A stretch of 44,383 bases of DNA from contig NZBM01000014.1 in the NCBI GenBank assembly GCA_002687905.1, positions 1 to 44,383 on the forward strand, in the 5' to 3' direction. The position numbers were made by a program, and so were the translations under genes. Below the pieces are notes generated by a model. It was not told where the DNA came from. It saw only the letters and a program-made list of their open reading frames with translations, and made no database searches. This document shows, piece after piece, positions 5,314 through 19,648 of this stretch. Every line of letters begins with the position of its first letter. Positions within the stretch are counted from its first letter, which is position 1. Origin of the DNA: a bacterium. GTDB lineage: Bacteria; Patescibacteriota; Minisyncoccia; Phycocordibacterales; JABMNX01.

Positions 5314-5985
5314 TTAAAACTCTTCAAATGTTGGAACGACATTCACAACTACACTCTCTGAAATAGGACCACCAGCAGTTGAGCATGCCAGAACGTATGT
5401 ACTCTGTTGAGTAATAGGAGCCGTGTCTTCTGTTCCACTTTCTCCTGTCTCACTAAAGCTCGGCCCAGTAACAGTACATGAACCGGGAGTTACATTCTCT
5501 GCTACCCATTCAATTTCTGATGTGAAGCCGGGCTGGACCAAGGTTGGATCAGCTGTAATAGTAATTTCTGGATTTAGAACTGTCACAGTCTGTTGAGCCT
5601 GCCCACCGTTTGAACAAACAACTGTGAACTGTGTTGTTGATGTAGGAAATACTGCTACAGCTCCTGAGGTAGCTCCGCCTGTAGAGAAATTTACGCCCGA
5701 GCTTGAGGTGGAATCAAAACAGGTCCACTGAAGTGTACAAGAACCCCCGCTGTTTATTGTCCCTCCACAATCATTTGAAAAAGTTGGAGGAGTACACAAA
5801 TCACCTGAATGCGGTGTGCCGCACGAAGCTGGAATTACCGCACCAATTCCACCTGGAGATAGAGCTGAAAAACCAACCTCAACCGAGCTAACAGGATTAT
5901 TGTGAAAAGAAATACCAACAATAGAAAAAACAGAAATAAATACTACTAAAATAAATAGTGCCGGTAGATATCTTTCTTTAATCAT
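5314..5985 (-). CDS. secreted Ig-like two-domain protein
   Basis: The 223-residue protein has an N-terminal hydrophobic segment (about 8-27, signal or anchor) and a Cys-rich Pro/Gly linker. Two Ig-like domains follow, the first with SSGVNFSTGGATSGAVAV and the second with a typical E-I-E-W core. The Ig block is nearly colinear with the Ig block of 1012-1917, including the SSGVNFSTGGA motif and the identical C-terminal logic (PTFEEF here, PSFEEF there). There is no YSQ segment here. It lies between the TPR and Lnt genes and is very likely co-transcribed. Probably an exported structural or adhesive protein; function unknown. Confidence 0.82.
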   Translation of the reverse strand: MIKERYLPALFILVVFISVFSIVGISFHNNPVSSVEVGFSALSPGGIGAVIPASCGTPHSGDLCTPPTFSNDCGGTINSGGSCTLQWTCFDSTSSSGVNFSTGGATSGAVAVFPTSTTQFTVVCSNGGQAQQTVTVLNPEITITADPTLVQPGFTSEIEWVAENVTPGSCTVTGPSFSETGESGTEDTAPITQQSTYVLACSTAGGPISESVVVNVVPTFEEF

Positions 5986-6006: not shown

Positions 6007-6729
6007 CTAGAAAGTTTCCGACCGAACAAGTGCAAGGTTATCCTTTATAATCAAAATCATATTCTCAATCGCTCTACCCGCTATTCCTGAGTCATTCCCG
6101 GGATTTGCCCTAGACCACTCCTCTTCAGTCAGGCTCTTCGCCTCTGAAAGAGCCTCTTCAAAGAACCTCTTTGCCCTCTCTTTAAGATTGAGGTTCATTA
6201 AAGCGCTTCCAAGAGTCGTCAAAAGCCATGGGTTTTGGGGCGCAATTGCCAATCCCAACCTTGCGTATTCTTCTGACTTATTAAAATCTCCCTTGCTGAA
6301 ATAGACCCACGCTAAATCATTATATGCTGCCCAATTTCTGTCTTTAACAGAAAGATAATGTAGGAAACTCTCTTCTGCTTTGTCAAAATTCCCAGCATAG
6401 CCGTTTATAAGACCATGAACATAAAAAGAAGATATTACATTGTCGCCATGACGCTCCACCTGCTCATCTATTAATCTGATTGCCTCGTCAAAATCCCCTT
6501 CTAAAAAATAAATGCGAGCGAGTTGGTGCTTTGCATATAAATGATCTTCGCCTTCTTCGAGAGCTCTTTTGAAATATTCTCTGGCAATATCTAAATTATA
6601 TTTATTTCCATATCCGAAATATAGATTTCCTCTCTCAAAGTAGTCAACTTTCATTACCTTTGGAGAAAAGCTAATTATTGCCGAAACAATTAGTATTAAA
6701 AGGACAATTTTTATGCCTCTTTTATCCAT
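6007..6729 (-). CDS. membrane-anchored TPR protein
   Basis: The 240-residue protein has an N-terminal TM helix (about 6-22) and roughly four tetratricopeptide repeats with the W/G/A/Y/P spacing visible: HQLARIYFLEGDFDEAIRL, YVHGLINGYAGNFDKAEES, YNDLAWVYFSKGDFNKSEE and LTTLGSALMNLNLKERAKR. It is likely an extracytoplasmic scaffold. It is the first gene of operon 1 (TPR, Ig, Lnt), 21 bp before the Ig gene, and is divergent from 6791-8431 with a 61-bp shared promoter region. A second helical-repeat membrane protein beside the second Lnt-like gene (10764-11933) gives operon 2 the same parts list. Confidence 0.85.
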   Translation of the reverse strand: MDKRGIKIVLLILIVSAIISFSPKVMKVDYFERGNLYFGYGNKYNLDIAREYFKRALEEGEDHLYAKHQLARIYFLEGDFDEAIRLIDEQVERHGDNVISSFYVHGLINGYAGNFDKAEESFLHYLSVKDRNWAAYNDLAWVYFSKGDFNKSEEYARLGLAIAPQNPWLLTTLGSALMNLNLKERAKRFFEEALSEAKSLTEEEWSRANPGNDSGIAGRAIENMILIIKDNLALVRSETF

Positions 6730-6790: not shown

Positions 6791-8431
6791 ATGTATACAG
6801 ACATTGAGGAGAAAACAAAGAGTTTAAAGGAAAAAATAGCAAAAGAAGTATTTGTTTCTGGAGATAATGAGAAAATAATCGGCCCAAACGGAGAGAAGCA
6901 AAAATGGTTATTTGACTTCAGAAAAATATTATTTGACCCAGAGTCTTTAAATACTATTGCAGAGCTTTTTTGGGATATATACAAAGATCAATACCCTTTC
7001 CAAATTGGAGGACTTGAAACTGCTTCAATTCCAATATTCTCTGCAATAGTTACAAGAAGTAAAGATTTCGGGAAGCCCATAAATGGCTTTTTTATAAGAA
7101 AGGAGCGCAAAAGCACAGGTCTCCAGAAAATAATTGAGGGTAAGCTAAATAGTTACCCTGTTATTTTAATTGATGACTTAATTAATACGGGAGGATCAAT
7201 CAAAAGACAGCTCAGCCTTATGGAAAATGAGGGTGTTGAAGTAAGGAGCGCTTTCTCAATACTCTGTTTTAGGGACAAAGAATTTTATCCTTTTGATATA
7301 TCTTCGCTTTTTTCCTTAAAAGACTTCAACATACCGCTCTCCGAGAAAAAGGAAAAAAAGAAAGAGCTTCAATTTGAAGTTTTGTGGCACTTTAAAAATG
7401 AAAATCCTAATTACTTTTATACAAATCCAAAATCTCGTCCTGCCTATGCTTTTTCAGGAGTATGTTTTGGAACTGATGACAAAAAATTTGTAGCACTTAA
7501 TAGCTCGAGTGGAAAAATGAAGTGGGAATATAAAGTTGGACGTACCTCAAAAGGTAAAAGTATATTCTCTTCCCCCTCAATACATAAAAACATAGTTTAC
7601 TTTGGAGCATATGATGGAAATGTTTATGCTCTCAATACAGAAAATGGAGAGAGAATTTGGAAATTTACAGAAGCAGATTGGGTTGGTTCTTCTCCGTATG
7701 TGTCGCCAGATTTAAATTCTCTTTTTGTAGGGCTTGAGTTTGGACTGCTTAAACAAAGAGGCGGAATTGTCTCCCTTGATTTAGAAAGTGGAAAGAAAAA
7801 ATGGCAATACACCTTCAAAGGACTTGCTCATTCAAGTCCTGCTTACAGTAAAAAATATAATGCAGTAGCAATTGGCTCTAATGATTTTAATGTTTATCTT
7901 CTGGATGCTAAAAACGGAAAGCTTAAATGGAGTTTTAAAACTGGCGGAGAAGTGAAAGCTTCTTTTAGCATTGATGAGGATAGAGGAAGAATAGTTTTTG
8001 GTTCTCACGATGGAGGCTTTTATGTGCTTAATATAGAAGACGGCGCTCTTATCTTTAAATATCAGACTGACGATATAATTTATTCAACACCGCTGATGTA
8101 TGACGGTGAGGTAATATTCGGCTCTTACGATAAATATATTTACAGCCTAAATTTAAACTCATTTAAATTGTCTTGGAAATTTGATGCTGGAAGCAAAGTG
8201 TCGGCTGACCCTATTGTGGTTGACGGCAGATTCTACGTTGGCGCTCATAATGGAATTTTTTATGTGCTTAATAGAGGAGGAGAAAATATAGGTGAATTTT
8301 TTGCAGGAGAGAGAATAGTAAATGCGGCTAGATATGACGAATATAAAAAACGGCTATATTTACCCACTTTTGCGGGAGAAATCTACTGTTTAAAGGAGAA
8401 TGACTTGACAAAACCTCCAAAAAGTGCTTAA
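6791..8431 (+). CDS. orotate-type phosphoribosyltransferase fused to PQQ-like beta-propeller
   Basis: Residues 1-200 form a type I PRTase fold: GGLETASIPI (73-82), the OPRT-like FIRKERKSTG loop (101-110) and the PRPP-binding motif VILIDDLINTGGS (124-136). Residues about 205-540 are seven or so PQQ-type propeller blades with recurring phrases such as YFGAYDGNVYALNTENGERIWKF cut into GxxDGxxYALN...G...W units. No signal peptide or TM is seen, so the propeller is probably cytosolic. Free OPRTs act in pyrimidine synthesis; here the propeller may be a regulatory or interaction platform. The C-terminal codons overlap the promoter of the next cassette (8405-8433). The combination is unusual. Confidence 0.85.
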   Translation: MYTDIEEKTKSLKEKIAKEVFVSGDNEKIIGPNGEKQKWLFDFRKILFDPESLNTIAELFWDIYKDQYPFQIGGLETASIPIFSAIVTRSKDFGKPINGFFIRKERKSTGLQKIIEGKLNSYPVILIDDLINTGGSIKRQLSLMENEGVEVRSAFSILCFRDKEFYPFDISSLFSLKDFNIPLSEKKEKKKELQFEVLWHFKNENPNYFYTNPKSRPAYAFSGVCFGTDDKKFVALNSSSGKMKWEYKVGRTSKGKSIFSSPSIHKNIVYFGAYDGNVYALNTENGERIWKFTEADWVGSSPYVSPDLNSLFVGLEFGLLKQRGGIVSLDLESGKKKWQYTFKGLAHSSPAYSKKYNAVAIGSNDFNVYLLDAKNGKLKWSFKTGGEVKASFSIDEDRGRIVFGSHDGGFYVLNIEDGALIFKYQTDDIIYSTPLMYDGEVIFGSYDKYIYSLNLNSFKLSWKFDAGSKVSADPIVVDGRFYVGAHNGIFYVLNRGGENIGEFFAGERIVNAARYDEYKKRLYLPTFAGEIYCLKENDLTKPPKSA

Positions 8432-8433
8432 CT
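8405..8433 (+). promoter_or_regulatory. promoter of the 8469-9224 cassette gene
   Basis: TTGACA (8405-8410), a 17-nt spacer ending TGC, and TTAACT (8428-8433). The whole -35 and spacer are inside the last codons of the upstream fusion gene, and the -10 covers its stop codon. Confidence 0.75.
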
Positions 8434-8468
8434 GTGGCCACGTTAACACAGACACGGAAAGGTAAGCT

Positions 8469-9224
8469 ATGTGTTCTTTAAAAAAGGTGGCCACCACCAT
8501 CTTGGCAGTGGCAGCAACTTTGTTCGTGGTATTTGGCGCGCACGCCTCGACCACTGACGTACTTGGTCGAGACGGGTGCACACCCTACCAACTCAAGATC
8601 GGTGACCGCATACACACAACCAACCGAAATGGCACCATGGAGCTCGTCTTTGCGGGCGTGGAAACGGAAGGTTCGCACGCCGGCGAGGCTCGGTTCAACG
8701 CCACATGGAAGGGTGACAACAGATGGATCCGGTACCAGAAGTCTGACAGCCTCAACATCACAGCTGTCTACCGTCCGGACAGTGGCAGACTAGTCGCGGC
8801 TTCCAGGCGCACACCAGCTATAGAATTCTGGCCGGCACACCTAGTCACCGGACAGGTTCTACAGCCAATGGTGGAGTACGTCTATAGCTGGAACTACGGC
8901 TTCTTCACAAGGGGTTCGACCACCCGCACCCTCGAGAAAGTAGAAGTTCTGAACTGCGAACTTATCGAGATCGGGAGCGGGCAAAAAGTGCACGCCCACC
9001 ACATCAGAATAACTGACAGAAGACATATGGCGGATGGCAGAAAGGCCAACCGCCCACGCGTTGAGTCATGGTGGGTTGTGGAAGGTGTTGGGAAAGTTAA
9101 GGGGGTAAACAAAGAGTTTCCTCAGAATAACTTTCACATCAGCTTTGTGCAACCAGTCCAGGGTCGCGATAACCAAGGAGAAGGGGCCCAGACCCGAAGC
9201 CCCCAAGAAGACAGGGGTCAGTAA
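8469..9224 (+). CDS. GC-rich cassette: secreted protein of unknown function
   Basis: The 251-residue protein has a Sec signal (MCSLKKVATTILAVAATLFVVFGAHAS, cut near AHA). A mature beta-rich domain follows, with a repeated tryptophan pattern (NATWKGDNRWIRY, YSWNYGFFTRG, RVESWWVVEGVGKVKGV) and a low-complexity Gln/Gly/Asp tail. The layout is reminiscent of periplasmic beta-barrel-like domains that end in a GxGxVxxV strand, but I cannot name a family. A GGAAAGG Shine-Dalgarno precedes the ATG. Codon use is GC-rich, unlike both neighbours. It lies between two converging AT-rich genes with its own promoter and terminator. Confidence 0.8.
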   Translation: MCSLKKVATTILAVAATLFVVFGAHASTTDVLGRDGCTPYQLKIGDRIHTTNRNGTMELVFAGVETEGSHAGEARFNATWKGDNRWIRYQKSDSLNITAVYRPDSGRLVAASRRTPAIEFWPAHLVTGQVLQPMVEYVYSWNYGFFTRGSTTRTLEKVEVLNCELIEIGSGQKVHAHHIRITDRRHMADGRKANRPRVESWWVVEGVGKVKGVNKEFPQNNFHISFVQPVQGRDNQGEGAQTRSPQEDRGQ

Positions 9225-9253
9225 CGACGACGACGGCTCGTCGCCCTAAACAA

Positions 9254-9316
9254 GGCTGGCTAGCCCAGCCGCCAACACAACCGGCGCACTCACGATGCGC
9301 CGGTTCTTCTTTTTAT
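9254..9316 (+). terminator. terminator region of the 8469-9224 gene
   Basis: Two hairpins in series: GGCTGG/CCAGCC at 9254-9270, then AACCGGCGCA/TGCGCCGGTT (9279-9288 with 9296-9305) followed by CTTCTTTTT. The second is a strong intrinsic terminator. It also separates the cassette from the converging gene whose stop is at 9313. Confidence 0.9.
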
Positions 9317-10776
9317 AAAATCAAATTATAAAAAATTACCCCTTCTTTATCTCGACTAACTTTCTCCAAAATTTTACCACTCGGACTTATTACCGCAGAA
9401 GGACCAGTCTTCATAGAGTGGAGAACATAAGAATTATTTGAAATAGCTCTAAGTTGTGAGGCTCGAAGATGAGCTTTTCTCGCTAAATAACTACCAAAAT
9501 CGCCAGTATTCCCAGAGACTATTATTATCCTCGATGATCTCTCTTCTTTTAAGAGAGATCGAACAATAAAGGGATGAAATCCCTCACTACATGAGAGTGC
9601 TGGTATATTAACCCCCCCTGCTTCAGTATTAATAGTTAAGAGAGCTGACTCTCCTCTTTCGTAGCGCTTTGAAAAATTCTCGAGCTTAGGAAAAATAGCG
9701 TCAATAAATTTTGGAATTGAGTCAGAAAATGGAAATAGACTTTCCTTTTCAGAAATTGATATACTTCCATCTTCATTAAAAGACGCCGTAACTAAATACC
9801 TTTTACTATCTCTATCCAAGGTCAAACTGCTAACTATAGATCTTGATTGAAATGGTGCAAGCAGTGATAATTCTACATACTTTTTATTTAATTCACTTGT
9901 TTCTACGTTTCCAAAATATTGCCCAGGGAGCAGGAGCAAATCTACATCTTTATCGGGATAGAGGCTTAGTACAGAAATTGTTTTTTTGTGTAGCCCATCA
10001 AAGTATTGCTGCCCAGGACTACTAATAAAATTTGGCTGAACAATAGCTATATTAATACTTCCGATACTTATTTTTCCATTTTTAAGACCGTCAATTATAG
10101 AACCAGTGATAAAAAGCATCATCAAGATTAGTGCAGGCGCTAATATTAGGAGGATTCTTTTTTTGCTACTTAATTTATAGAAATGAGATCTGTGCTTGAA
10201 TATTAATAAAACAAGAATATTAAAAGAAACCACAATAAATGTAAGTAGAAATACATCTCCTATAAATGCAAATTGTCTTAGAGATTCTTGTGGAAGTAAC
10301 GCTTCGCCAATGTGTCCCCAAAATAAACTGAAGCTAAGAAAGCCAAGTAGCAACTCATGTATAACAAATACAAAAGGAAGGTAGAGTAGCCGGGCTAAAG
10401 TATTTTTTGTGCACAAATACACAACTGTAAGTGATATTCCAATTACTAAGGCACGAAGCAGTATATAAATTAGAATTGAAAACTTTATTGAATTTATAAC
10501 TGTCGTGTCCAAAAGAGCATTTATTGATTCTATTGAAAGCAGTGGAAAACTAAATGTGAGAGTGTATAAAAAACTAAACACAAATATTACGGTGACTAAT
10601 TCTTTTTGTTTTTTGATAGATTCCAACAATAAAAAAATTGGTACAAGAGAGATAAAAGACAAAAACCAAAGAACATCAATCCAATGAGAAATTCCAATTA
10701 AAACCACTGAAGACAGTATTAGAAATTCGGCATTAAGTTTTTGAAATATCTTGGATGGGTTTTTTATATTTTCCAT
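9313..10776 (-). CDS. Lnt-like protein lacking the catalytic Glu
   Basis: The 487-residue protein has Lnt architecture: six to seven N-terminal TM helices and a C-terminal nitrilase-fold domain. Of the expected Glu-Lys-Cys triad, Lys (SEKESLFPFSDS) and Cys (PALSCSEGF) can be placed. The Glu position, normally PE in the motif after DVDLLLLP, reads LLLLPGQYFG, so the acidic residue is missing. The GE of the Lys motif is also changed to SD. It may be inactive, non-acyltransferase, or a specialised partner. Its start overlaps the stop of 10764-11933 by 13 bp, so it is the last gene of operon 2. The intact paralogue is at 3815-5311. Confidence 0.75.
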   Translation of the reverse strand: MENIKNPSKIFQKLNAEFLILSSVVLIGISHWIDVLWFLSFISLVPIFLLLESIKKQKELVTVIFVFSFLYTLTFSFPLLSIESINALLDTTVINSIKFSILIYILLRALVIGISLTVVYLCTKNTLARLLYLPFVFVIHELLLGFLSFSLFWGHIGEALLPQESLRQFAFIGDVFLLTFIVVSFNILVLLIFKHRSHFYKLSSKKRILLILAPALILMMLFITGSIIDGLKNGKISIGSINIAIVQPNFISSPGQQYFDGLHKKTISVLSLYPDKDVDLLLLPGQYFGNVETSELNKKYVELSLLAPFQSRSIVSSLTLDRDSKRYLVTASFNEDGSISISEKESLFPFSDSIPKFIDAIFPKLENFSKRYERGESALLTINTEAGGVNIPALSCSEGFHPFIVRSLLKEERSSRIIIVSGNTGDFGSYLARKAHLRASQLRAISNNSYVLHSMKTGPSAVISPSGKILEKVSRDKEGVIFYNLIL

Positions 10777-11933
10777 CCGATTTCGCGAAGTAAATCACCC
10801 ATTCGATCGTCCACCCTTACCATGTTAAGTGTTGATCTTTGTAGAGTATTAGTTTCATCTTCACCAAGTAATCTTAGGAAATTAAAAAATGATAAACTAC
10901 GATCTTCATTTTCAAAAAGCACATCCAACAAACTTTTAACATCTTCGGCGCGATCTTCATGACCTAATGTTGTTAAATTTGACAAGAAAAGACCATAAAA
11001 ATATCTAGTATAAAGATCTGGATTTCTTCCCTCTACAGATCCTGACAACTCGCTAAACTCCTTCATGGCACTTTGGTAAGAATCCTCAGCAATAATCTTG
11101 TTTTCTTCCTTTCCCTCAACAACAAAAAGGCCGGCATATATATTGCCTTTTAATCTGAATGTAGAAATCCTTGTCTGCGGAGATAAACCACCTCTAGCTA
11201 CGCTCAAATCTTCTTGGGAAATTGTATTTTCGAAAGACTTATTTGCCTCAGTAAGATACACTTTGAGTTGGTCCAAATATATAGACCTCTTCTCCTGGCC
11301 TAGTTTTTTATCTGGCCCACCAAACCTATCTTCAAGAAGTCTGTTTCCGTACCAAAAAGCAACCCTATACAAACCTTCTATTGTTGGAAATAATTCATTT
11401 GCAAAATCATAAGCTCTTTTGAGTCCTTGTTCTATACCCTCTCCTTCTTTAAGAAAAGAGCCCCAAATATTGTCCCCCGAAAATATCTCTCTTCTGGCGA
11501 ATTCCTCATTATAAGTACCAGAGTATACATCTAAAGCATATATTATCGATCCAGCTCGATAACGGCTTGGATATTCTTCTTGAATTGATACTTCTTTGAG
11601 GACCTGAACTCCTTGTAGTGTTTTATCAGTAGAAATATGCGCTACTCCTAAATTTATTTTCGCCAAAGCTTCTTCGGCTGGATTATCTGACTTTCTCACC
11701 GCTTCTTCAAAAAGTGCCACCGAAGATGAGTCGCGCTTTAAAAATAAGTCCCTACCTTCGTCAAAAGAAGAAGCAAATTCACTTATCTCTTTCTTATCCT
11801 TACTAAAAGGCCCCTTTATGAAAAAATATATCCCTCCTAATATAACTAAAACCAAAGCAAATATTATTGCAACAATTAAATACATCTTTACAATTCCTTG
11901 AGTCTCTAAATCTCGTTCTGGTAATTCGTCCAT
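10764..11933 (-). CDS. membrane-anchored helical-repeat protein (TPR-like)
   Basis: The 389-residue protein has a short cytosolic N-terminus, one TM helix (about 18-40) and a long extracytoplasmic helical region with weak TPR-like pairs (for example EEALAKINLGVAHISTDK and TRISTFRLKGNIYAGLFVVEG). No enzyme motif is visible. It lies 8 bp after the rhodanese gene and overlaps the Lnt-like gene, so it is firmly in operon 2. Its position beside an Lnt-type gene mirrors the TPR gene of operon 1, although the two TPR-like proteins are not obviously similar in sequence. Confidence 0.75.
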   Translation of the reverse strand: MDELPERDLETQGIVKMYLIVAIIFALVLVILGGIYFFIKGPFSKDKKEISEFASSFDEGRDLFLKRDSSSVALFEEAVRKSDNPAEEALAKINLGVAHISTDKTLQGVQVLKEVSIQEEYPSRYRAGSIIYALDVYSGTYNEEFARREIFSGDNIWGSFLKEGEGIEQGLKRAYDFANELFPTIEGLYRVAFWYGNRLLEDRFGGPDKKLGQEKRSIYLDQLKVYLTEANKSFENTISQEDLSVARGGLSPQTRISTFRLKGNIYAGLFVVEGKEENKIIAEDSYQSAMKEFSELSGSVEGRNPDLYTRYFYGLFLSNLTTLGHEDRAEDVKSLLDVLFENEDRSLSFFNFLRLLGEDETNTLQRSTLNMVRVDDRMGDLLREIGWKI

Positions 11934-11941
11934 AATTTTAA

Positions 11942-12427
11942 TTAATTAAAGCTATACCAGCTATCTTCAACTAGAGGCAGGCCAGCGTCTCCCCATCCAC
12001 GTATTCCATTTGCGCTCCTTTTTATATTAGAAAACCCATGATGTTCTAGATAGTGGTAGGCAACACCAGCAAGAGCCCCTCCTGTACAAATTAATACTAT
12101 TTCCTTCCCTTTTCTTGGAAGTCTATCTTTTTCAACCGAAAGAAGGTGGATTGGTATGTTTATTGAGCCTTCGGCGTGCGCTTTAAAGTATTCATTAGGA
12201 GACCTTACATCTATAAATATGTAGTCGTCGCTATTTTCTTTGAAATCTTCATAAAATATCGTAGGATCAACGTCATTTATAGAAGGAGATACTAGAGCAA
12301 TGTTTTTTAGTGGAGTAAGGTAAATAATCGTACTTGAAATAAGAACCCCTAAAACAAATATAGAAAGGAAGAGCGGATATAGCTTAGGATTATTAAACTT
12401 TTTGCTCGCCTTCATACTACTTTCCAT
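11942..12427 (-). CDS. membrane-anchored rhodanese-domain protein
   Basis: The 161-residue protein has one TM helix (about 18-38) and a single rhodanese domain: YIFIDVRSPNEYFKAHAEGSINIP (CH2A-type motif, shown in part) and the active loop LICTGGALAG with the catalytic cysteine. Rhodaneses carry sulfur as a persulfide or take part in thiol exchange. The domain would face outward given the N-terminal anchor. The start overlaps the stop of the Hint-domain gene by 11 bp; an ATG at 12415 is an alternative. Together with the TlpA-like protein it gives operon 2 two thiol-active extracytoplasmic proteins. Confidence 0.85.
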   Translation of the reverse strand: MESSMKASKKFNNPKLYPLFLSIFVLGVLISSTIIYLTPLKNIALVSPSINDVDPTIFYEDFKENSDDYIFIDVRSPNEYFKAHAEGSINIPIHLLSVEKDRLPRKGKEIVLICTGGALAGVAYHYLEHHGFSNIKRSANGIRGWGDAGLPLVEDSWYSFN

Positions 12428-13406
12428 TTAACACCAAGAAGAAATTGTCTCCATCCTCTGAAACCAAAAAATTTTCAGACTCTGTTTTAGGATGAAATAC
12501 CTCTGATTCCTCCCGATATGAAGAGATGTTATGAGAAAAAGACTCTTTTTTAACTACTGCTCTATTTTCAAATGCACCAACCTCTTTTGTAAGGACAAAT
12601 AAAGGAGTGCCTTTTCTAAGGGTTCTCGCACGAACTCCCTCATAATTGTCCCCAATCACAAACCTGTGTGTATCAACTGCTTCTACTTGAGCGCCTCCTG
12701 AAGACATTATCTTTGCAAACATTCTTAAACCTCTCTTAAATGCATACATTCCGGTGACTTCAACTTCTCTCACTTTTGGCTCCCTTCTAAATCCATTGTA
12801 TTCAAAATCAACTCCAAGAATCTTTTCCCCCACCTTAAGATCCTTGAGCTCTTTGTGAAGTATTTCTCCACTTGCTCCAAATCCTACTGCAACTTTTACC
12901 GATCCTTTAAAACAGCAACCACCACCACCGTCATCGGAATCACCCCCAACTCCATCACAACCCCCTCCGCCTCCACTGCCTCCGCCGTCGCCTCCGCCGT
13001 CGCCGTCGCCGTACCCTCCTTGGCTATAGTATGAACCCTGTGAATAATAGCTTCCTTGTGAATAGTAGGAGCTTTGTGAATAGTAGGAGCTTTGTGAATA
13101 GTAAGAGCTTTGGCTGTAATAAGAGCCCTGTGAATAGTACGAGCCTTGTGAATAATATGAACTTTGTGAGTAATATGAGCTTTGGCTATAAGGAACATCG
13201 GCATGAGCAACAGAAAAAAAGAAAGAATCTTCAATTATCTCGCCATCTCCATTTTCTCTTTCGTCGCCATCTGATGATGAGTTCGCGATATCTCTCAATT
13301 TCTCTTCAGCAGAAAGACCTAACACAGTTGCACCAAGACCCAAAAGGCCGAGTGACAACATTCTTCTTGTTTTTGCTACTTTTCCTAAAAGCATATTTAA
13401 ATACAT
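12417..13406 (-). CDS. exported YSQ-repeat, Gly-rich protein with C-terminal Hint domain
   Basis: Visible parts of the 329 residues are a long N-terminal leader with hydrophobic segment MLSLGLLGLGATVLG and a possible cleavage site SVAHA before Asp70. Ten YSQ motifs in near-perfect YYSQSS/YYSQGS hexads follow (about 73-130), then a Gly/Asp tract with Cys150 (132-163), then Cys164-Cys165. Residues 164-329 look like a Hint domain (hedgehog/intein fold): CCFKGSVKV, LKDLKVGEKILGVDF, VTGMYAFKRG, VDTHRFVIGD, LRKGTPLFVL and a closing NFFLV. Hint domains rearrange a peptide bond at the first Cys, releasing or transferring the upstream segment. The usual terminal His-Asn is absent and block B is atypical (VDTH), so splicing is unlikely and cleavage only possible. 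Confidence 0.78.
   Translation of the reverse strand: MYLNMLLGKVAKTRRMLSLGLLGLGATVLGLSAEEKLRDIANSSSDGDERENGDGEIIEDSFFFSVAHADVPYSQSSYYSQSSYYSQGSYYSQGSYYSQSSYYSQSSYYSQSSYYSQGSYYSQGSYYSQGGYGDGDGGGDGGGSGGGGGCDGVGGDSDDGGGGCCFKGSVKVAVGFGASGEILHKELKDLKVGEKILGVDFEYNGFRREPKVREVEVTGMYAFKRGLRMFAKIMSSGGAQVEAVDTHRFVIGDNYEGVRARTLRKGTPLFVLTKEVGAFENRAVVKKESFSHNISSYREESEVFHPKTESENFLVSEDGDNFFLVLNGK
13036..13200 (-). repeat. tandem 18-bp coding repeats (YYSQ[S/G]S)
   Basis: Nine to ten imperfect 18-bp units encode the Tyr-Tyr-Ser-Gln-Ser/Gly-Ser hexads of the Hint protein. Units such as TTTGTGAATAGTAGGAGC (plus strand) recur almost unchanged next to each other, so copy number could vary by slippage in steps of six residues. 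Confidence 0.9.
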
Positions 13407-13433
13407 TATATATTCCCAATGCTTTACAACAAA

Positions 13434-14888
13434 CTATCTTAATATTGGATGTGGGATAGTGTTTGGAAATTTAGACTTTTCAGAAACCCCCATCAAACGA
13501 CTAGCGCCTAAAGTTATATTCTTCTCTTTTAAGTAAAGCGGTACCAAAGCTGGAACAATCGTCTTAAGCACGACATAATTCACGCCTTTTAAGAACTTTT
13601 CTGAAGCAAAATATACATATATTTCATATTCATTTCCCATATCCCTCAAGCGCTTTTTTATTGTTTTCAACTCTTCAATAGGACTCTCAATTGAGCTCTT
13701 GGAGCTTTCTAATTCCTTGATATCCTTCTCTTCTCCTTTAAGAAACCAATCTATTTTATTTAAATCGTCTAAATTGCTCCAGAAAAGAATCCTCTCCGTT
13801 TCGTCAAAATTTTCTTTATCTAATTTTCCCGGAGAAAAGATATTAGGCTCAAATATATAGTGGGAAGAGAGACTTTTCATCAAAGAGTACCTTATAGCCT
13901 TAATAGCAGAGCCTGCACATCCCAAACCAACGCTTACAAAGTTACTAACTCCATTGTTTTTGATTATCACACTTGCATAAACAGGTATCCCAACATCCTC
14001 CGTTGAGATATCGAGTATTGAGACTTTGAGAGATTGTTTCTTTAAGTTTGAGATAATTTCTCTGATAAAAACATCTTCTATTGAACCGATCTTGACTCTT
14101 TGAGGAGTTAAAAAATTTAGCCAGTGTATCAAAAATGCATCATTTACAATTGCCTTTCTTAGTGAACGGAGAAGAGCGGAGTCGTAATCAAACATACCTG
14201 AAGCAGTGTAAGAATTTGACTCCCTTAGAAATGGATCTATCTCATCATTTTCTAAATGTATGTCGTAATTGCTAAAAATTAATTGTGACGGAATAAAAGA
14301 CGTTGTGTTTGTGGATATATTTTCTCCAAGCGTCCAAGAAATTGGAGCTCTGTCTCCATGGTGAAGATCCATTCTCTTTTCAATTTGTTCCTTTGAAAAA
14401 CCTGCTAATTTATTAGGGTTTAAAAAATCCTTACCTTTATCTTTAAGAGCCTCTATTGAGGCTCTTAAATCCTCCTTTTTTACTTTAAGAGCTTCGTGCT
14501 CTAAAAAAGAGCCGATTGATTTTGATATTGCCTCATTCGAGCTAAAAGATACCGAGGGTTTGTACAAGAAGTCACCGCAGGAAACATTGGCTATTATGGG
14601 AGAGTTCTGTTCTCCCCTTCTCCCAAATATATTTACTTCTAAGTTCTCAATATGGAGATTTTTCTCAAGATACCTGAGTAAGTTTGGCCAATCATCAGCC
14701 TTTAATACCTCAAGTTTGCCGGAAAGAGCCCTAACTAAATTGGCTAGGTAATTAAGTATTTTCTCACTGTGATTTTCCCTTATTTTAAAACCCCTATCCG
14801 CCTTTTGTTTTTTAAGAGTGTCTTTGGAAGTTATTTTGGAAACTAATACTGGTGTGACTACTCTGTCTATTTTTTCATCCTTGTTCAT
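13434..14888 (-). CDS. YcaO-family protein (divergent)
   Basis: The 484-residue protein matches the YcaO domain in order. It has a middle segment SYTASGMFDYDSALLRSLRK followed by AIVNDAFLIHW (family: ExIERDAF.xxW). Next come VSILDISTEDVGIPVYAS, then VSVGLGCAGSAIKAIRYSLM, and a C-terminal VVLKTIVPALVPLYL ending NTIPHPILR, the proline-rich tail seen in azoline-forming members. YcaO enzymes use ATP to modify peptide backbone amides (azoline, thioamide, amidine). Several ATP-site acidic or Arg residues are altered (ERDA reads VNDA), so activity is uncertain. The first 60 or so residues are not recognised. It lies 27 bp before the YSQ/Hint gene and 8 bp after the TlpA-like gene; the Cys/Ser/Gly-rich Hint protein is the obvious candidate substrate. 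Confidence 0.72.
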   Translation of the reverse strand: MNKDEKIDRVVTPVLVSKITSKDTLKKQKADRGFKIRENHSEKILNYLANLVRALSGKLEVLKADDWPNLLRYLEKNLHIENLEVNIFGRRGEQNSPIIANVSCGDFLYKPSVSFSSNEAISKSIGSFLEHEALKVKKEDLRASIEALKDKGKDFLNPNKLAGFSKEQIEKRMDLHHGDRAPISWTLGENISTNTTSFIPSQLIFSNYDIHLENDEIDPFLRESNSYTASGMFDYDSALLRSLRKAIVNDAFLIHWLNFLTPQRVKIGSIEDVFIREIISNLKKQSLKVSILDISTEDVGIPVYASVIIKNNGVSNFVSVGLGCAGSAIKAIRYSLMKSLSSHYIFEPNIFSPGKLDKENFDETERILFWSNLDDLNKIDWFLKGEEKDIKELESSKSSIESPIEELKTIKKRLRDMGNEYEIYVYFASEKFLKGVNYVVLKTIVPALVPLYLKEKNITLGASRLMGVSEKSKFPNTIPHPILR

Positions 14889-14896
14889 TATATAAA

Positions 14897-15451
14897 CTAC
14901 TCAACCACGTCTATCATCTCCTCTATTTTCTCAATGAAATATTCCTCTGTTCTCCATCCAAATTCAATAGAATGAACATCGCCGTTTTTCGTAATTAAAA
15001 CTGACGAAGGCGTGATATCTGCTCCGAGTGTAAAGAAGTTATAAATTTCTTCTTCATCACCTCCTAAAAACACAGGGTAATTCACATCAATCTCTTCTAT
15101 AAATTCTCTGCCGGCTTCTACTGATTCTCTGTGTGGTCTATGAATACCAATTATCTCTAAATCTTTATCATAGAAGTCGCGTTTCAACCTTTCTAAAACG
15201 AGTGTCTCTTCTTTACAAAAAGAACACCAAGCAGCCCAGAAGTTTATTATCAAATGTTTTTTCCCCAGAAACTCTGACATTGAGTGCTTCTCTCCAGAGA
15301 AAGTTACGAGTTCAAAGTCAGGTATTGTTGCAAATCTATACGGCTCGCTTCTAAAATTGCCGTAATAGGAAATTGCAAATACCAAAACTAGTAATAGAGC
15401 TGAAGCCAGAAGCGTGTACTTTATATTTTCCTTATACTTCTCTATATACAT
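14897..15451 (-). CDS. membrane-anchored TlpA-like thioredoxin
   Basis: The ATG start at 15451 gives a 184-residue protein with one N-terminal TM helix (about 12-32) and a thioredoxin fold of the TlpA/AhpC-TSA-related type. It has NFWAAWCSFCKEE with the redox CxxC (WCSFC) and the cis-Pro segment DITPSSVLI. An in-frame GTG at 15469 is a less likely start. These proteins reduce or oxidise disulfides outside the membrane. It is the first gene of operon 2, upstream of the YcaO and Hint genes, whose product has adjacent cysteines. That fits a role in keeping a cysteine nucleophile in a given redox state, which is inference. Confidence 0.88.
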   Translation of the reverse strand: MYIEKYKENIKYTLLASALLLVLVFAISYYGNFRSEPYRFATIPDFELVTFSGEKHSMSEFLGKKHLIINFWAAWCSFCKEETLVLERLKRDFYDKDLEIIGIHRPHRESVEAGREFIEEIDVNYPVFLGGDEEEIYNFFTLGADITPSSVLITKNGDVHSIEFGWRTEEYFIEKIEEMIDVVE

Positions 15452-15499
15452 TATTTTGAATTCTATCACGCAAAGCTTATTGACCTCTTAATATTTGCA

Positions 15500-15527
15500 T
15501 TGCTCCAGTCTAATTATCTGGTACAGT
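15500..15527 (+). promoter_or_regulatory. probable promoter of tRNA-Arg
   Basis: TTGCTC (15500-15505), a 16-nt spacer ending TGG, and TACAGT (15522-15527), 20 bp before the tRNA. It overlaps the 3' end of the antisense recombinase reading frame. Confidence 0.5.
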
Positions 15528-17153
15528 TTTTCTGTACACAAATACACGCCCCCGTAGTTCAAGGGATAGAATACAAGTTTGCGGAACTTGCGATCCAGGT
15601 TCGAGTCCTGGCGAGGGCACCAGAATTTGACTTGTCGGCATTTGACCGACGGACGAGTGGGCAGCCCGCAGGACTGCCCATTGGTTTTGCCCCACAACAA
15701 CGCCGTTTTTTGGCGTGCCGCCTGTGGCGGCACGCAGGTTTTTCTCGCCGAGGCGGAGGTTCGAGCCAAAGATTTCTTTGGCGCAGACCTTTTTCGCAAA
15801 AAGGTCTGAATCAGAAGCGATTTCGTTAAGACGCTGAGCGGTTTTTAGCCAATCTTGGAAAGGTTCGAGCCAATCATTCTGCTTGCGTGAAAGAGAAGTG
15901 ATTTTTTCTTCAAGCGACTTCTTTTGCGAGAGTAGTTTTGCTTTTTCCGTGCGATACACACTACGCTCAATATCCTGCTCCAAATATCCGTCAAGAAGTC
16001 GCTGGAGTTTTGTTTGTATAGTTGCGATTTTCTCCTCTTCCTCTTTCACGCAAGCAGTCAAAGACTGGGCGGAATTTTTGTAGTCTTGCGAAGCAAGTCG
16101 ATTAAGTTCGTCCGCCCAGTCTTTGGGCAAAGAAACTTTTTGAATGAGGCATGATAGTTGCTTGTCTAATTCTTCCTTACGAATACAGGGTTCGGGACAT
16201 TTGATTGATTTGTGTTTCTTCGTGCAGTGATAATACACATACTCATGCACATTACCGTTCTTTTGTTTCTTGACTCTGTATTCGCCCGTGATCATCATGC
16301 CGCATGAAGCGCAGGAGATAAGTCCGCAAAAAGGTTGCGGTTCATTTTTGGGTTTGCGCTCTGGCTGACCACGTTGCTTGAGCATTGCCTGCGCTTCATC
16401 AAAAAGTTTCTTTGTAATGATTGGCTCGTGCTTTCCTTCGTGTATTTCACCACCGTATTTGAACAGACCAACATAAAACGGATTGGAAAGGATAAAAGCC
16501 GCTCGCGTCTTGGAGATTCTCTTTCCGGAACGCGTGGTGATATTGTGCTTCGCCAAAAAGTCTGCAACATCTTCCAGCCGCATATCACCTTGTGTGTATT
16601 TTTCAAAAGCCAAGCGGATAACTTTTGCTGATTTCTTCTCCACAACGATTGTTTTGATGCGTGGGTCATTCAAGTATCCAACAGGCGCTTGGCTTGGAAA
16701 GATACCCATGCGAACTTTTTGGCGAAGGCCTCTTTTCGTGTTCTCGGAAAGAGAATCGACGTAGTATTTGCTTTGGACAAATGCCATCGACAATGTGAAC
16801 TTGCCTTGCGGTGTATTTTCAAACCAGTGGCTCGGAAATTTGAGGCTCGCAAGAGTATCGATGTCCAGAAAGTACACAATCTGTCCGCCGTCCACGGAAT
16901 TACGCGCGAGGCGATCTGGGTGCCAACTGATGATGCCGTTTGCTTCACCACTTTCTATGCGCCGCACCATTTCGCCAAAAATGGGACGCCCTGGAACTTT
17001 CGCGGTTTGCTTTTCTACAAACTCATCAACAATATGCAAACTTTCATTTTTGGCGAAAGCGCGCAATTCCGTGAGCTGCGATTCAATACTCATCACTTGT
17101 TTGTCCTCAACATCGGTACTCTTGCGAGCGTACAAAAAGTATTTTTGATTCAT
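15510..17153 (-). CDS. large serine recombinase
   Basis: Read from ATG 17153, the protein has the resolvase catalytic domain (YARKSTDVEDKQ with nucleophile Ser; SWHPDRLARN), a recombinase domain (APVGYLNDPR, RAAFILSNPFYVGLFKYGG) and a zinc ribbon (CGLISCASCGMM ... YYHCTKK ... IKCPEP). A coiled coil (about 400-450) and a tail follow. Such enzymes join or invert DNA between short att sites. The frame has no stop before it crosses the tRNA-Arg gene, so its last 30 or so residues are the antisense of the tRNA and its promoter. No obvious Shine-Dalgarno precedes the ATG, and the 5' leader is highly structured. A 148-bp inverted repeat includes the tail-coding part. Confidence 0.9.
   Translation of the reverse strand: MNQKYFLYARKSTDVEDKQVMSIESQLTELRAFAKNESLHIVDEFVEKQTAKVPGRPIFGEMVRRIESGEANGIISWHPDRLARNSVDGGQIVYFLDIDTLASLKFPSHWFENTPQGKFTLSMAFVQSKYYVDSLSENTKRGLRQKVRMGIFPSQAPVGYLNDPRIKTIVVEKKSAKVIRLAFEKYTQGDMRLEDVADFLAKHNITTRSGKRISKTRAAFILSNPFYVGLFKYGGEIHEGKHEPIITKKLFDEAQAMLKQRGQPERKPKNEPQPFCGLISCASCGMMITGEYRVKKQKNGNVHEYVYYHCTKKHKSIKCPEPCIRKEELDKQLSCLIQKVSLPKDWADELNRLASQDYKNSAQSLTACVKEEEEKIATIQTKLQRLLDGYLEQDIERSVYRTEKAKLLSQKKSLEEKITSLSRKQNDWLEPFQDWLKTAQRLNEIASDSDLFAKKVCAKEIFGSNLRLGEKNLRAATGGTPKNGVVVGQNQWAVLRAAHSSVGQMPTSQILVPSPGLEPGSQVPQTCILSLELRGRVFVYRKTVPDN
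15548..15622 (+). tRNA. tRNA-Arg (anticodon GCG)
   Basis: A full cloverleaf can be drawn: acceptor GCCCCCG with CGAGGGC (one C-A mismatch at the fifth pair), D stem GTTC/GAAT, anticodon stem CAAGT/ACTTG around TTGCGGA (anticodon 15581-15583), 4-nt variable loop, and T arm CCAGG-TTCGAGT-CCTGG. The discriminator is A15619 and CCA is encoded (15620-15622). A GCG anticodon reads CGC/CGU. The last 6 nt are part of the 148-bp inverted repeat, and the serine recombinase frame runs antisense through it, as expected of an integration site. Confidence 0.85.
15617..15764 (+). repeat. 148-bp inverted repeat, left copy
   Basis: It starts with the GCACCA of the tRNA-Arg 3' end and runs into the recombinase tail codons. 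It matches 17351-17498 in inverted orientation with no length change and roughly ten substitutions by eye. Confidence 0.92.
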
Positions 17154-17166
17154 AATATTTTGTAAA

Positions 17167-17262
17167 AGCAGAAAGGACCACTCCAGTGTTGTAACCTTAA
17201 CGTTAGTCAAGATATCTGGAATAGCCCTTTCTGCTGACTAACTAATAATTGGTTACAACACT
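17167..17262 (-). promoter_or_regulatory. structured recombinase leader with nested and interleaved inverted repeats
   Basis: Three inverted-repeat pairs occupy the recombinase 5' leader. AGTGTTGTAACC (17185-17196) pairs with 17251-17262. GTTAGTCA (17202-17209) pairs with 17235-17242, inside the first pair. AGCAGAAAGG (17167-17176) pairs with 17226-17235, which lies in the loop of the second pair, giving a pseudoknot topology 14 bp before the start codon. It could control translation or be a recombinase binding site. Confidence 0.65.
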
Positions 17263-17265
17263 TTC

Positions 17266-17271
17266 ATTATA
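17266..17271 (-). promoter_or_regulatory. -10 of the recombinase promoter
   Basis: The minus strand reads TGC-TATAAT, a perfect extended -10; a -35 is weak. Transcription would start within the outer arm of the leader structure (17251-17262). Confidence 0.6.
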
Positions 17272-17350
17272 GCAAAACTTTGCATTTCTCAAAAATCAAA
17301 AATTCTTTTTGTATCCAAAGCAAATACTACAAACAAAATTGCTTCTGATG

Positions 17351-17498
17351 TCGAACCTCCGCCTCGGCGAGAAAAACCTGCGCGCCGCCGCAGGCGACGC
17401 GCCGCAAAACGGCGTTGTTGTGGGGCAAAACCAATGGGCAGTCCTGCGGGCTGCCCATGCGTCCGTCGGTCAAATGCCGACAAGTCAAATTCTGGTGC
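17351..17498 (-). repeat. 148-bp inverted repeat, right copy
   Basis: Inverted copy of 15617-15764. It begins TCGAACCTCCGCCTCGGCGA on the plus strand and ends TTCTGGTGC. Its last bases overlap the left inverted end of the adjacent 3.7-kb element. Confidence 0.92.
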
Positions 17499-17509
17499 GT
17501 CTATTTTAC
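17495..17509 (+). repeat. 15-bp terminal inverted repeat, left
   Basis: GTGCGTCTATTTTAC; exact inverted copy at 21149-21163. It overlaps the end of the 148-bp inverted repeat by four bases. Confidence 0.8.
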
Positions 17510-17710
17510 CAAGCTCGAAACCATTTTCAAAACAAAAGGTGATTCACGCGCCGAGCGCGTGCCAATTCCAAATCACATCGTACGCTCCGATTGCGTGGTA
17601 ATACGAACAAAGAAAGCGGAGCTCGCAAGCTCGCACAGTATCTCGTCCACCTGCGGGCGGACGAACAACGACGAACACAGGGCGCGCCATCGCCCTCGTA
17701 ACCTCGGGCG

Positions 17711-17823
17711 ACCGTCCGACCAAAACCGTTTCCTTTCATTTTTGTGCGGCTCCCCCCTCAAACCCCCCGCCGCGAAGCGGAAAAAAGAAAGGTAAGGAAA
17801 CGGTTTTGTCGGTCGGGTTCGCT
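17711..17823 (+). repeat. 113-bp internal inverted repeat, left
   Basis: It contains ACCAAAACCGTTTCCTTTC and, after a GC-rich centre (CCGCCGCGAAGCGG), GAAAGGTAAGGAAACGG. The repeat unit is therefore itself an imperfect palindrome. Nearly identical to 20902-21013 inverted. Confidence 0.9.
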
Positions 17824-18114
17824 ACCAATTTTTTAATACACAAAACCCCCGCACAATGGTGGGCTCGGGGATGTTTCCGCCAGAGGCGGATAAATAGTAA
17901 GAAATTCAATATCCAAACTCCGAGGAGGGAGATTTTTGCGCGAAGCGCAAAAGTTGGATCTCAAATTTCATTCCCACAAGCTCACCATTGTACGGGGGTT
18001 CATTTTCCTTTGCGATACTCCCTCCTCGCGAGTTCGCTACATGTTGCACATATTTGTTTGTTACTCTTATATCTGTTTGAAAATTCCAACAAATTTTGAA
18101 ATTCTCAAAAGATA
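17824..18114 (-). other. non-coding tail of the 485-aa transcription unit
   Basis: No gene is seen. On the minus strand a 22-bp stem with G-U pairs (17979-18000 with 17844-17865) encloses about 113 nt and is followed by TTTTGTG, a terminator-like end. Inside and beside it are an inverted pair of the 10-mer: CTCCCTCCTC at 18018-18027 and GAGGAGGGAG at 17922-17931 (plus strand). A small GCGCGAAGCGC hairpin lies at 17938-17948. Confidence 0.55.
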
Positions 18115-18143
18115 GGACGAGTTGAGTTCCACTCAACTCGTCC
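18104..18143 (-). terminator. terminator of the 485-aa gene
   Basis: A 13-bp perfect stem GGACGAGTTGAGT/ACTCAACTCGTCC (18115-18127 with 18131-18143) with a 3-nt loop is followed on the minus strand by TATCTTTT. Confidence 0.88.
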
Positions 18144-18190
18144 AAGTAAACCAGTGGAGACATCCGTGTCTCCAAACCTCCTACCGCTTA

Positions 18191-19648
18191 TTAGCTCACC
18201 ATTGCTACTCGTTCCGCCTCGGACAAGTGCTTGCACACCTGACCGCCACCGTTGTAGCTGTACCAGCTGCTATTGGTTGCTCCGTTGCCGGTGCGACCAC
18301 GGTCGCGGAAGAACAACTCGCCGCCAGGTCCACGGTACCAGTAATCAATGATACCGGCACCGAATGCCTTTGAGGTGATCTCCACCTCCGGCTCGTCGTT
18401 GGACTCCTTGCGGAATCCGAGAGCCTCCATGGTCTGCTCCGTCGGACCGAGAAGCTCGATGACTTCCGACCCGGACGGCAGCGACGCACCATCGCCAGCC
18501 GACTTCTCGATGAGTTTGAACAACTCACGAGCATCGGCATCGTAGATGCCGTCACCGTCGGCAGTGGTCACATTGTGCGATTCGCGGTTGTGAGCGTAAT
18601 GCTCACTAACCGAGAACCGACCCGAGCGACCACCCAGCTCAAGGCGTACCTCGTAGCGGTAATGGTAATACTGTCCGTCGTACGGATGGTTGTCCGCAAG
18701 GCGGATGGAAGTCACGACGACCTCCTCCGATTCCTTGCGGGTTCCCCACTCGTCGATGGCGGCTTTCAGTACATCCTGTACTTTTTGCCACTTCTCGGCG
18801 ACGAACATCTTATCGCCCTTGCGAGCGACCCAGACCAGCGAACGGCTGCCGAAGCGACCGATCGCGAGTCCGGCGAAGACCTTGATTCCGTTCTCTGCAA
18901 GTTCGGACTCCACCGCGTGGTGGATACTGTCACTTGCCTCGTTTGGGAACAAGGCTATGCGGCGCTCGGCGAGCCAATCTCTTGCCTGCTGGTACGACGG
19001 GCGCACCAGCTTGTTTTTGTCGTAGTCCCACTCGCCTCGGATTTCCATTCCGAGGGTTGCGGCGGAAGTGATAACCGCAGTCTTGCCGACGGAGCGAGTC
19101 CGCAGCAGAGCGTTGATCACATCCCGCCATGCGGGGGCGAAGTCGCCCTCGTACGCGGCCAGAATGGCCTCGGAGCGACGGCGTACCTTCCAGAGGAGCC
19201 GTTCCAGATTCCCCGGGCTGGGGAAACGGGAGACGACCTCCCAGAGATCGCAGTAGGTGTAATCGGAGTTGATGCCCCGACTACTCTGCGTTCTCTCGAT
19301 CATCTTCCGGACTGCCGGAAGAGTGGTTGCCGCCTTGAGCCAGCCGCCAAAGCGAGCATGGCTCTCGATCTCCTTGTCTGCCTCTTCCAGAGGCAGACGA
19401 CGCCCGTAGGCGCCGACCGTTCCGACGCTACCGGACATCTGCGACCGCACGATGTTGTGCGGCAGATAATGCCCAGTCGCCTCCTGAAAGGCATAAACGC
19501 CTTCCTCGGCGAGGAGCGCGAGCCCCTCGGCGGAGACGTAGCGGGTGCCGGCGTTGTCGATGTTGCGCTGTTCGGCGCGGACATCCGCCAGTACCGCATT
19601 CATGTTGGTCAAGTCGTAGTCGTGATGATTGTTGCGTTGGTTGCTCAT
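18191..19648 (-). CDS. GC-rich 485-aa protein of unknown function inside the inverted-repeat element
   Basis: No family is recognised. The protein is soluble, with no signal or TM. It has a His/Asn-rich start, a helical first half (LEEADKEIESHARFGGWLKAA; RLLWKVRRRSEAILAAYEGDF), SVGKTAVITSAATLG in the middle, and a beta-rich second half (YYHYRYEVRLELGGRSGRFSV; IDYWYRGPGGELFFRDRGR) with repeated Tyr. The SVGKTAV run is not a convincing P-loop. The start is supported by GGAG 8 nt upstream and by promoters at 20407-20518; a terminator follows the stop. The opposite strand has a 387-codon open frame, which I regard as a GC-rich shadow. Its very long leader suggests heavy post-transcriptional control. 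Confidence 0.75.
   Translation of the reverse strand: MSNQRNNHHDYDLTNMNAVLADVRAEQRNIDNAGTRYVSAEGLALLAEEGVYAFQEATGHYLPHNIVRSQMSGSVGTVGAYGRRLPLEEADKEIESHARFGGWLKAATTLPAVRKMIERTQSSRGINSDYTYCDLWEVVSRFPSPGNLERLLWKVRRRSEAILAAYEGDFAPAWRDVINALLRTRSVGKTAVITSAATLGMEIRGEWDYDKNKLVRPSYQQARDWLAERRIALFPNEASDSIHHAVESELAENGIKVFAGLAIGRFGSRSLVWVARKGDKMFVAEKWQKVQDVLKAAIDEWGTRKESEEVVVTSIRLADNHPYDGQYYHYRYEVRLELGGRSGRFSVSEHYAHNRESHNVTTADGDGIYDADARELFKLIEKSAGDGASLPSGSEVIELLGPTEQTMEALGFRKESNDEPEVEITSKAFGAGIIDYWYRGPGGELFFRDRGRTGNGATNSSWYSYNGGGQVCKHLSEAERVAMVS

Follow-up and report, generated by a model that had tools for sequence, protein, structure and literature searches.

The minus strand of the bacterial contig NZBM01000014.1 (44,383 nucleotides, all of which we analyzed and call the window) carries an operon of six genes. 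In order, they encode a thioredoxin-like protein, a YcaO-family protein, a protein with Tyr-Ser-Gln (YSQ) repeats and a Gly-rich tract, a rhodanese, a protein with one transmembrane (TM) segment, and an Lnt-like protein (Table 1). The organism belongs to the Patescibacteria, or candidate phyla radiation (CPR), and its genome is 0.59 Mb. We think that the operon is probably a variant of a CPR exported-peptide locus whose YcaO is a pseudoenzyme, that is, a degenerate relative of an azole-peptide cluster. Judging from sequence comparisons, it belongs with these loci, its YcaO has lost motif residues, and SagB is absent. Clusters of the base kind, for linear azole-containing peptides (LAPs), are already published: 110 clusters in 93 CPR genomes, most with a nitroreductase, from Parcubacteria and Microgenomates (Sharrar et al. 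2020, PMC7298704). An earlier note on this DNA had stated that no described system has this gene set, which was too strong, as those clusters combine YcaO, a nitroreductase, and a small precursor. What is new here is that the core of the locus also occurs without YcaO, and azole formation looks like an optional module.

The gaps between the six genes range from -13 to +27 nt, and all six frames are intact. The earlier note had described six overlapping or near-touching genes, and all six are where it placed them, except that the thioredoxin gene starts at 15469 (with GTG) and not at 15451. Pfam and NCBIfam searches of the window's proteins agreed with its calls of thioredoxin, YcaO, rhodanese, and Lnt, but the Hint domain it saw at the end of the YSQ protein is a weak match, below Pfam's cutoff. 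The TM protein, which it took for a scaffold, has no Pfam family; it is, though, a member of a family of one-TM proteins that recur beside precursors.

The window's YcaO has lost ATP-site residues. It is an intact frame of 484 codons and matches TIGR03604 (SagD) with an E-value of 1.1e-31, but the score of 110 bits is under the 219-bit cutoff. Three of the four ATP/Mg glutamates are lost, as are their arginines; E130 is kept. (The roles of these residues rest on alignment to LynD, TruD, and MusD and on general knowledge.) Among 28 aligned YcaO proteins, only the window's has lost E127, R131, E245, E248, and R249 together: it has S, H, K, V, and N where E, R, E, E, and R stand in nearly all of the other 27 and in LynD, TruD, and MusD. 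GE..ER has become GSFLEH and E..ERD has become K..VND, and the alignment there is ungapped and agrees with all three reference proteins. Nineteen columns show conservation of 90% or more across 23 core sequences, and the window's YcaO keeps 11 of them, the fewest of all. E127, R131, E245, and R249 are among the columns lost; E130 and the C-terminal PHP are among those kept. The latter is the proline motif of azoline-forming YcaOs (NTIPHPILR in the window, PHPFP in relatives), and P479, H480, and P481 are invariant in our alignment. We predict from these changes that the window's YcaO is a pseudoenzyme.

In the window's own genome (99.7% complete), nothing matches SagB at E ≤ 0.1, and SagB was likewise not found in four other sampled genomes (G010, G130, G385, and G090). 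TfuA has no match among the proteins scanned (6791-19648). Pfam and NCBIfam scans of the neighbors turned up no E1-like, ocin-ThiF, or RRE leader-binding partner (RRE, recognition element of ribosomally synthesized and post-translationally modified peptides, RiPPs), with no dedicated RRE search made. Since SagB is gone and the ATP/Mg site seems lost, azole formation is not expected in this genome.

We then examined related loci. (Below, G numbers are sampled genomes, with G000 the window's own, and L numbers are loci; the genomes are samples drawn from the order.) An alignment search for YcaO in 397 genomes of the order, including G000, found matches in 36 genomes, or 27 of 179 genera; in an initial search of 59 genomes besides G000, 6 had matched. 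We read the gene neighborhoods of 26 YcaO loci. Most true clusters pair YcaO with a peptide dehydrogenase of the SagB family (TIGR03605; 147.8 bits for L012, with a cutoff of 78.4), and relatives' YcaO scores 217.9 bits at TIGR03604 (cutoff 219.25). The loci have a short precursor, in most cases with a dehydrogenase of SagB type, and frequently also a membrane rhodanese and a membrane-anchored protein of ~390 amino acids. At L054, for example, the precursor, the TM partner, a DsbA-like protein, and the rhodanese lie on one strand, adjoining YcaO and SagB. The window's operon has the TM partner, the membrane rhodanese, and the junction A-x-A↓D-x-P of such a locus. The gene set that the earlier note singled out recurs in part, but its pairing of YcaO with Hint does not recur in the 397 genomes, and there is no Hint domain at any other YcaO locus that we read.

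Three features tie the operon to the other loci: the TM partner family, the membrane rhodanese, and the junction VAHA↓DVP. First, the TM partner has family members at 10 other loci, usually adjoining a precursor, and a model built without the window's protein finds it with E = 7e-24. Second, the rhodanese is 44-49% identical to the rhodaneses of L049, L054, and L057. (Its active-site loop is LICTGG, and C114 is invariant.) Also, the thioredoxin is 32% identical to one that lies beside the TM partner and rhodaneses in G183, which lacks YcaO. The extracytoplasmic thiol and sulfur enzymes of the operon retain their active cysteines. We rejected Lnt as a core part of the locus: it recurs in L008 only.

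Third, the YSQ protein shares a junction with small precursors. A targeted search found that relatives' precursors have ~65-133 amino acids, with an N-terminal hydrophobic segment, the motif A-x-A↓D-[VTAFYI]-P, and a tail of Gly, Cys, Ser, and Asp (for example, in L009, DVPGGDGCGDGGDGCGGSDGCASGG). A-x-A↓D-x-P is common to about 21 of 23 precursors, which were chosen by composition and motif, a choice that favors the pattern found. The strict motif is in 8 of 519 ORFs, and 7 of these are precursors or precursor-like. In the YSQ protein, VAHA↓DVP sits in the same place. The protein occupies the slot of a YcaO-pathway precursor, is predicted to be exported (we predicted export from hydropathy alone), and is encoded with extracytoplasmic thiol and sulfur proteins; this much of the earlier proposal is supported. 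We infer that it is exported and cut near A↓D.

The precursors differ in their cysteine content. Those at loci with SagB have 10, 1, 4, 3, 4, 2, 2, 9, 8, 7, 7, and 5 cysteines, versus 1, 2, and 0 at loci without SagB (p = 0.015, with small n). The YSQ protein has one Cys in the Gly tract, Cys-Cys at the start of the Hint-like domain, and Ser in the YSQ repeats. These repeats are real, as the earlier note had it, with eight overlapping in-frame matches to the pattern in the window; among 247 genomes, it turns up in one other. We considered the repeats as a YcaO-specific substrate and rejected this, as YSQ arrays are also found in large surface proteins, not small precursors (L077 in G245, and L085 from Yanofskybacteria). 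The protein at L077 (913-3030, plus strand) has a Gly/Asp/Ser tract, CC, a long YSQ array, and a PKD-like part, and ends in an LPxTG-like IPYTG and a TM segment; G245 also has a YcaO-SagB locus. At the far end of the recurrent neighbor genes, the window encodes a second exported protein (1012-1923, minus strand) that combines a Gly tract, YSQ-like repeats, and an Ig-like part.

The core of the locus also occurs in genomes with no match to YcaO. Among ~215 genomes, all six with a strong rhodanese match (E < 1e-50) have the TM partner as well (hypergeometric p = 3.6e-9). YcaO is in 7 of the 11 genomes with a strong TM partner, versus 36 of 397 overall (p = 7e-6); these statistics ignore shared ancestry. 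We opened four TM-partner genomes without a YcaO match. G012 has a precursor with AHADVP, the TM partner, the rhodanese, and a DsbA-like protein. G127 has two precursors, the TM partner, the rhodanese, and a PRTase-PQQ gene. G192 has a Cys-free precursor and the TM partner. In G183, there are a thioredoxin, the TM partner, and three rhodaneses, and we saw no precursor. Because precursor, TM partner, and rhodanese are found in genomes without YcaO, the core is separable from azole chemistry. In the open-licence literature, we found no description of the TM partner, of the rhodanese, or of the junction.

How might the locus work? Azole formation in the relatives is what YcaO, SagB, and Cys-rich precursors together lead us to expect; no product is known from these genomes. 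A small precursor with a membrane leader would be modified in the cytoplasm by YcaO and SagB, which would convert Cys and Ser to azoles. The precursor would then be exported and cut at or near A-x-A↓D-x-P. Outside, the one-TM repeat protein, the membrane rhodanese, and the thioredoxin- or DsbA-like protein would handle the peptide. In the window's genome, with SagB gone and YcaO apparently without its ATP/Mg site, the precursor would have become a larger surface protein, in which a YSQ stalk and a Gly tract precede a Hint-like tail that is partly eroded. YcaO would most likely survive as a noncatalytic protein that binds the precursor or acts as an export chaperone, because its frame is intact, its C-terminus is kept, and it is tightly placed in the operon.

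Several points weigh against this account. The chaperone role draws solely on those three observations about YcaO. The identity of the YSQ protein as a precursor comes from position, junction, and composition, not from alignable homology. In the precursors, 9-38 residues separate the hydrophobic segment from the junction, which is mostly long for signal peptidase I. In a tree of YcaO proteins, the window's is on a long branch and its placement is uncertain. (Two loci without SagB, L057 and L063, cluster together, yet long branches meet there.) Finally, YcaO searches of the sampled genomes found no close relative of the window's YcaO (a contig scan with it gave 41 pattern matches, none confirmed), so selection on it is not measurable and plain decay is possible.

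Under plain decay, the operon would be what remains of an azole-peptide cluster after the loss of SagB, and its YcaO, Lnt-like, and Hint-like parts would be drifting to loss with no present function. All three of these parts appear to lack catalytic residues, the genome has no SagB, and the window's YcaO retains the fewest conserved columns. Also, YcaO is missing from the other sampled genome of the same genus and from two of the four other sampled genomes of the family. But none of the six frames is broken, neighboring ones overlap or touch, the rhodanese Cys and the thioredoxin CxxC are kept, and YcaO keeps its C-terminal PHP though not its ATP motifs. We consider decay rather unlikely, if the most credible of the alternatives. 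When the Lnt-like protein is aligned with an intact copy (3815-5311) and with PDB 5n6m, its LLLLPGQYFG stands opposite VIVFPEQASL of that copy. Of the catalytic Glu-Lys-Cys, Lys and Cys are kept. Without gaps, Gly takes the place of Glu; with a gap of 7 residues, a different Glu could fill that position.

The sequence of the YSQ protein's tail suggests a partly eroded Hint-like domain. Pfam's Hint model matches ~40 residues with E = 0.038-0.12. A profile of CPR Hint domains scores the tail above all of 4,000 shuffles and 518 other ORFs, yet at E = 0.08 and 11 bits. Genuine CPR Hint domains can be aligned with it in blocks A and B, and they share CF, VGEKILGVDF, and the block-B His with it. The Cys of block A comes directly after the Gly tract in the context CFKGSVKV, which is one residue shorter than CFxxGT, and the VGD/VGE motif is present (LKVGEKILGVDF). 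In block B (TxxH), the window has AVDTH, with the His kept and the Thr absent. The C-terminal HN, for splicing or C-cleavage, is also absent: the window's protein ends in FLVLNGK and its relatives in LVHN. An AlphaFold model of the domain has a pLDDT of 48, and its top five Foldseek matches are all Hint, BIL, or intein (E ≥ 0.06), but the underlying alignment contained true Hint domains, so this result is weak. (A single-sequence model, with a pLDDT of 33, was of no use.) The gene has no close match in the 397 genomes. Two matches to the Hint query, L067 and L069, we attribute to chance, as the Cys region of block A is missing from both and their sequences resemble those of single-strand binding (SSB) proteins. 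Exported CPR Hint proteins were found solely in genomes without a YcaO match. Some of them (in G159, L089 and L105, along with L115) resemble the window's protein in having a signal segment and a Gly or Gly/Cys tract right before a CFxxGT Hint domain, but G159 has no YcaO match, and its proteins retain the canonical block B and the LVHN end, unlike the window's.

These results bear on the earlier note's model, in which a working YcaO introduces azolines or thioamides into the YSQ/Gly protein and, after export, this protein undergoes cleavage or attachment by way of its Hint thioester. The match to the YcaO family, the C-terminal PHP, and the block A Cys right after the Gly tract fit such a model, but the ATP/Mg glutamates and arginines are lost, the genome has no SagB, and the tract has a single Cys. 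On the Hint side, the block-B Thr and the penultimate His are lost, and the YcaO-Hint pairing did not recur in the sampled genomes. We think that this model is quite improbable. A switch in chemistry, with YcaO, for instance, inserting sulfur fed by the rhodanese, via another cofactor or the remaining Glu alone, is more improbable still: the YcaO and rhodanese genes do share an operon, and loci of this kind repeatedly include the rhodanese, but the rhodanese domain is predicted to be outside the membrane and YcaO inside, the same rhodanese is found at loci without YcaO, and, to our knowledge, the YcaO reactions characterized so far all use ATP.

How does the operon compare with known systems? 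In the CPR LAP clusters (PMC7298704), YcaO adjoins a small precursor, as it does the precursor-slot protein here, but the window has no SagB, its YcaO has lost ATP/Mg-site residues, and its precursor-slot protein has YSQ repeats and a Hint-like tail. The relatives resemble microcin B17 (McbA/B/C/D) and the streptolysin-type thiazole/oxazole-modified microcins in that their YcaO is of the McbD/SagD group (TIGR03604; McbD at 4.8e-7) and their precursors are Gly/Cys/Ser-rich, but here the precursors have an N-terminal membrane segment and A-x-A↓D-x-P, and there are an extracytoplasmic rhodanese and a TM-repeat partner. Bufferin-type RiPPs, which are discussed together with signal peptides and Sec, involve MNIO iron enzymes, not YcaO (PMC12452194). 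E. coli YcaO, a helper of RimO, is a precedent for a YcaO that is a scaffold and not a maturase, but it has another target and does not belong to a precursor locus (PMC9953058). CPR YcaOs have been suggested to serve thioamidation of methyl-coenzyme M reductase (PMC12153355), which does not fit these loci because they have SagB and precursors.

Table 1. Features of the operon and its neighbors in the window.
Feature	Positions	Strand	Basis
Membrane-anchored thioredoxin-like protein, TlpA/ResA type, CxxC intact	14897..15469	-	PF00578 6.5e-16, WAAWCSFC
YcaO-family protein, predicted pseudoenzyme; C-terminal PHP kept	13434..14888	-	PF02624 7.8e-23; motif residues lost
Eroded ATP/Mg motif 1, IGSFLEH vs xGExxER in relatives	14496..14516	-	alignment
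Eroded ATP/Mg motif 2, KAIVND vs ExxERD in relatives and LynD/TruD/MusD	14139..14156	-	alignment
Precursor-slot protein: N-terminal TM segment, VAHA↓DVP, YSQ repeats, Gly/Cys tract, Hint-like domain	12417..13406	-	sequence
Junction VAHA↓DVP, residues 66-72, common with small precursors	13191..13211	-	motif comparison
Nine SSYYSQ/GSYYSQ repeats after an initial YSQ	13020..13190	-	sequence
Gly/Asp-rich tract, single Cys	12918..13019	-	sequence
Hint-like domain: starts at Cys164/165; block B with His but without Thr; LN in place of C-terminal HN	12420..12917	-	alignment, profile, Foldseek
Membrane-anchored rhodanese with its active Cys; domain predicted to lie outside	11942..12427	-	PF00581 1.7e-13
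One-TM helical-repeat partner protein of precursor locus, 389 aa	10764..11933	-	no Pfam family; 11-locus family
Lnt-like membrane protein, catalytic Glu apparently missing (LLLLPGQYFG)	9313..10776	-	TIGR00546 135.6 bits vs 132.9 cutoff
PRTase-PQQ propeller protein, recurrent neighbor of such loci	6791..8431	+	domain search, locus reading
TPR protein, recurrent neighbor (16 loci)	6007..6729	-	locus reading
"SPGG...VIPASC" Ig-like exported protein, recurrent neighbor	5314..5985	-	locus reading

We also noticed other genes around these loci. Contig C4 of G240 (L051) has two YcaO-SagB pairs ~3 kb apart. TM proteins beside precursors in L009 (5583-6791, plus), L012 (5428-7074, minus), and L013 (13255-14925, plus) have TPRs and a region that looks C39-peptidase-like by eye, though its only Pfam match is a weak one to Peptidase_C70. 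At YcaO-SagB loci, exported proteins in L008 (7203-8822), L012 (7132-8031), and L013 (12233-13216) have a Gly(/Cys) tract and, after it, a conserved STPFxxTWNGKxFxxENDFLFGKP domain, for which the L012 copy gave no Pfam match. The window has single genes of high GC content (53-62%, versus 41% for the contig) at 2988-3683 (-), 8469-9224 (+), 18191-19648 (-), 21351-22259 (+), and 31050-31511 (-). Most have a signal peptide, and several have a promoter resembling TTGACA/TATAAT, with a hairpin terminator immediately downstream of the stop codon. Similar genes lie within many YcaO neighborhoods in other genomes (L008, L011, L012, L013, L049, L119, L120, L121, and L122), and they look like independently acquired cassettes. 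Next to the operon, a serine recombinase ORF (15510-17210, minus) overlaps a tRNA-Arg gene (15548-15622, plus) at its 3' end and is bounded by 148-nt inverted repeats (15617-15764 and 17351-17498) that are 95% complementary. This region is possibly a mobile or invertible element.

CPR bacteria live on other cells, and their surface exports are poorly known. It is plausible, at somewhat less than even odds, that these bacteria possess a system for exported peptides that has yet to be described. At its core would be a precursor with a membrane leader and the junction A-x-A↓D-x-P, a one-TM repeat protein dedicated to it, a membrane rhodanese, and a protein of thioredoxin type, and the azole chemistry of YcaO and SagB would be an add-on in some lineages that has been lost or has become a pseudoenzyme in others, the window's among them. 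The recurring locus, with and without azole chemistry, offers testable candidates for surface or antagonistic peptides of CPR bacteria. And a YcaO that apparently has no ATP site, and yet is kept in an operon, would be a natural test of a noncatalytic role for YcaO.

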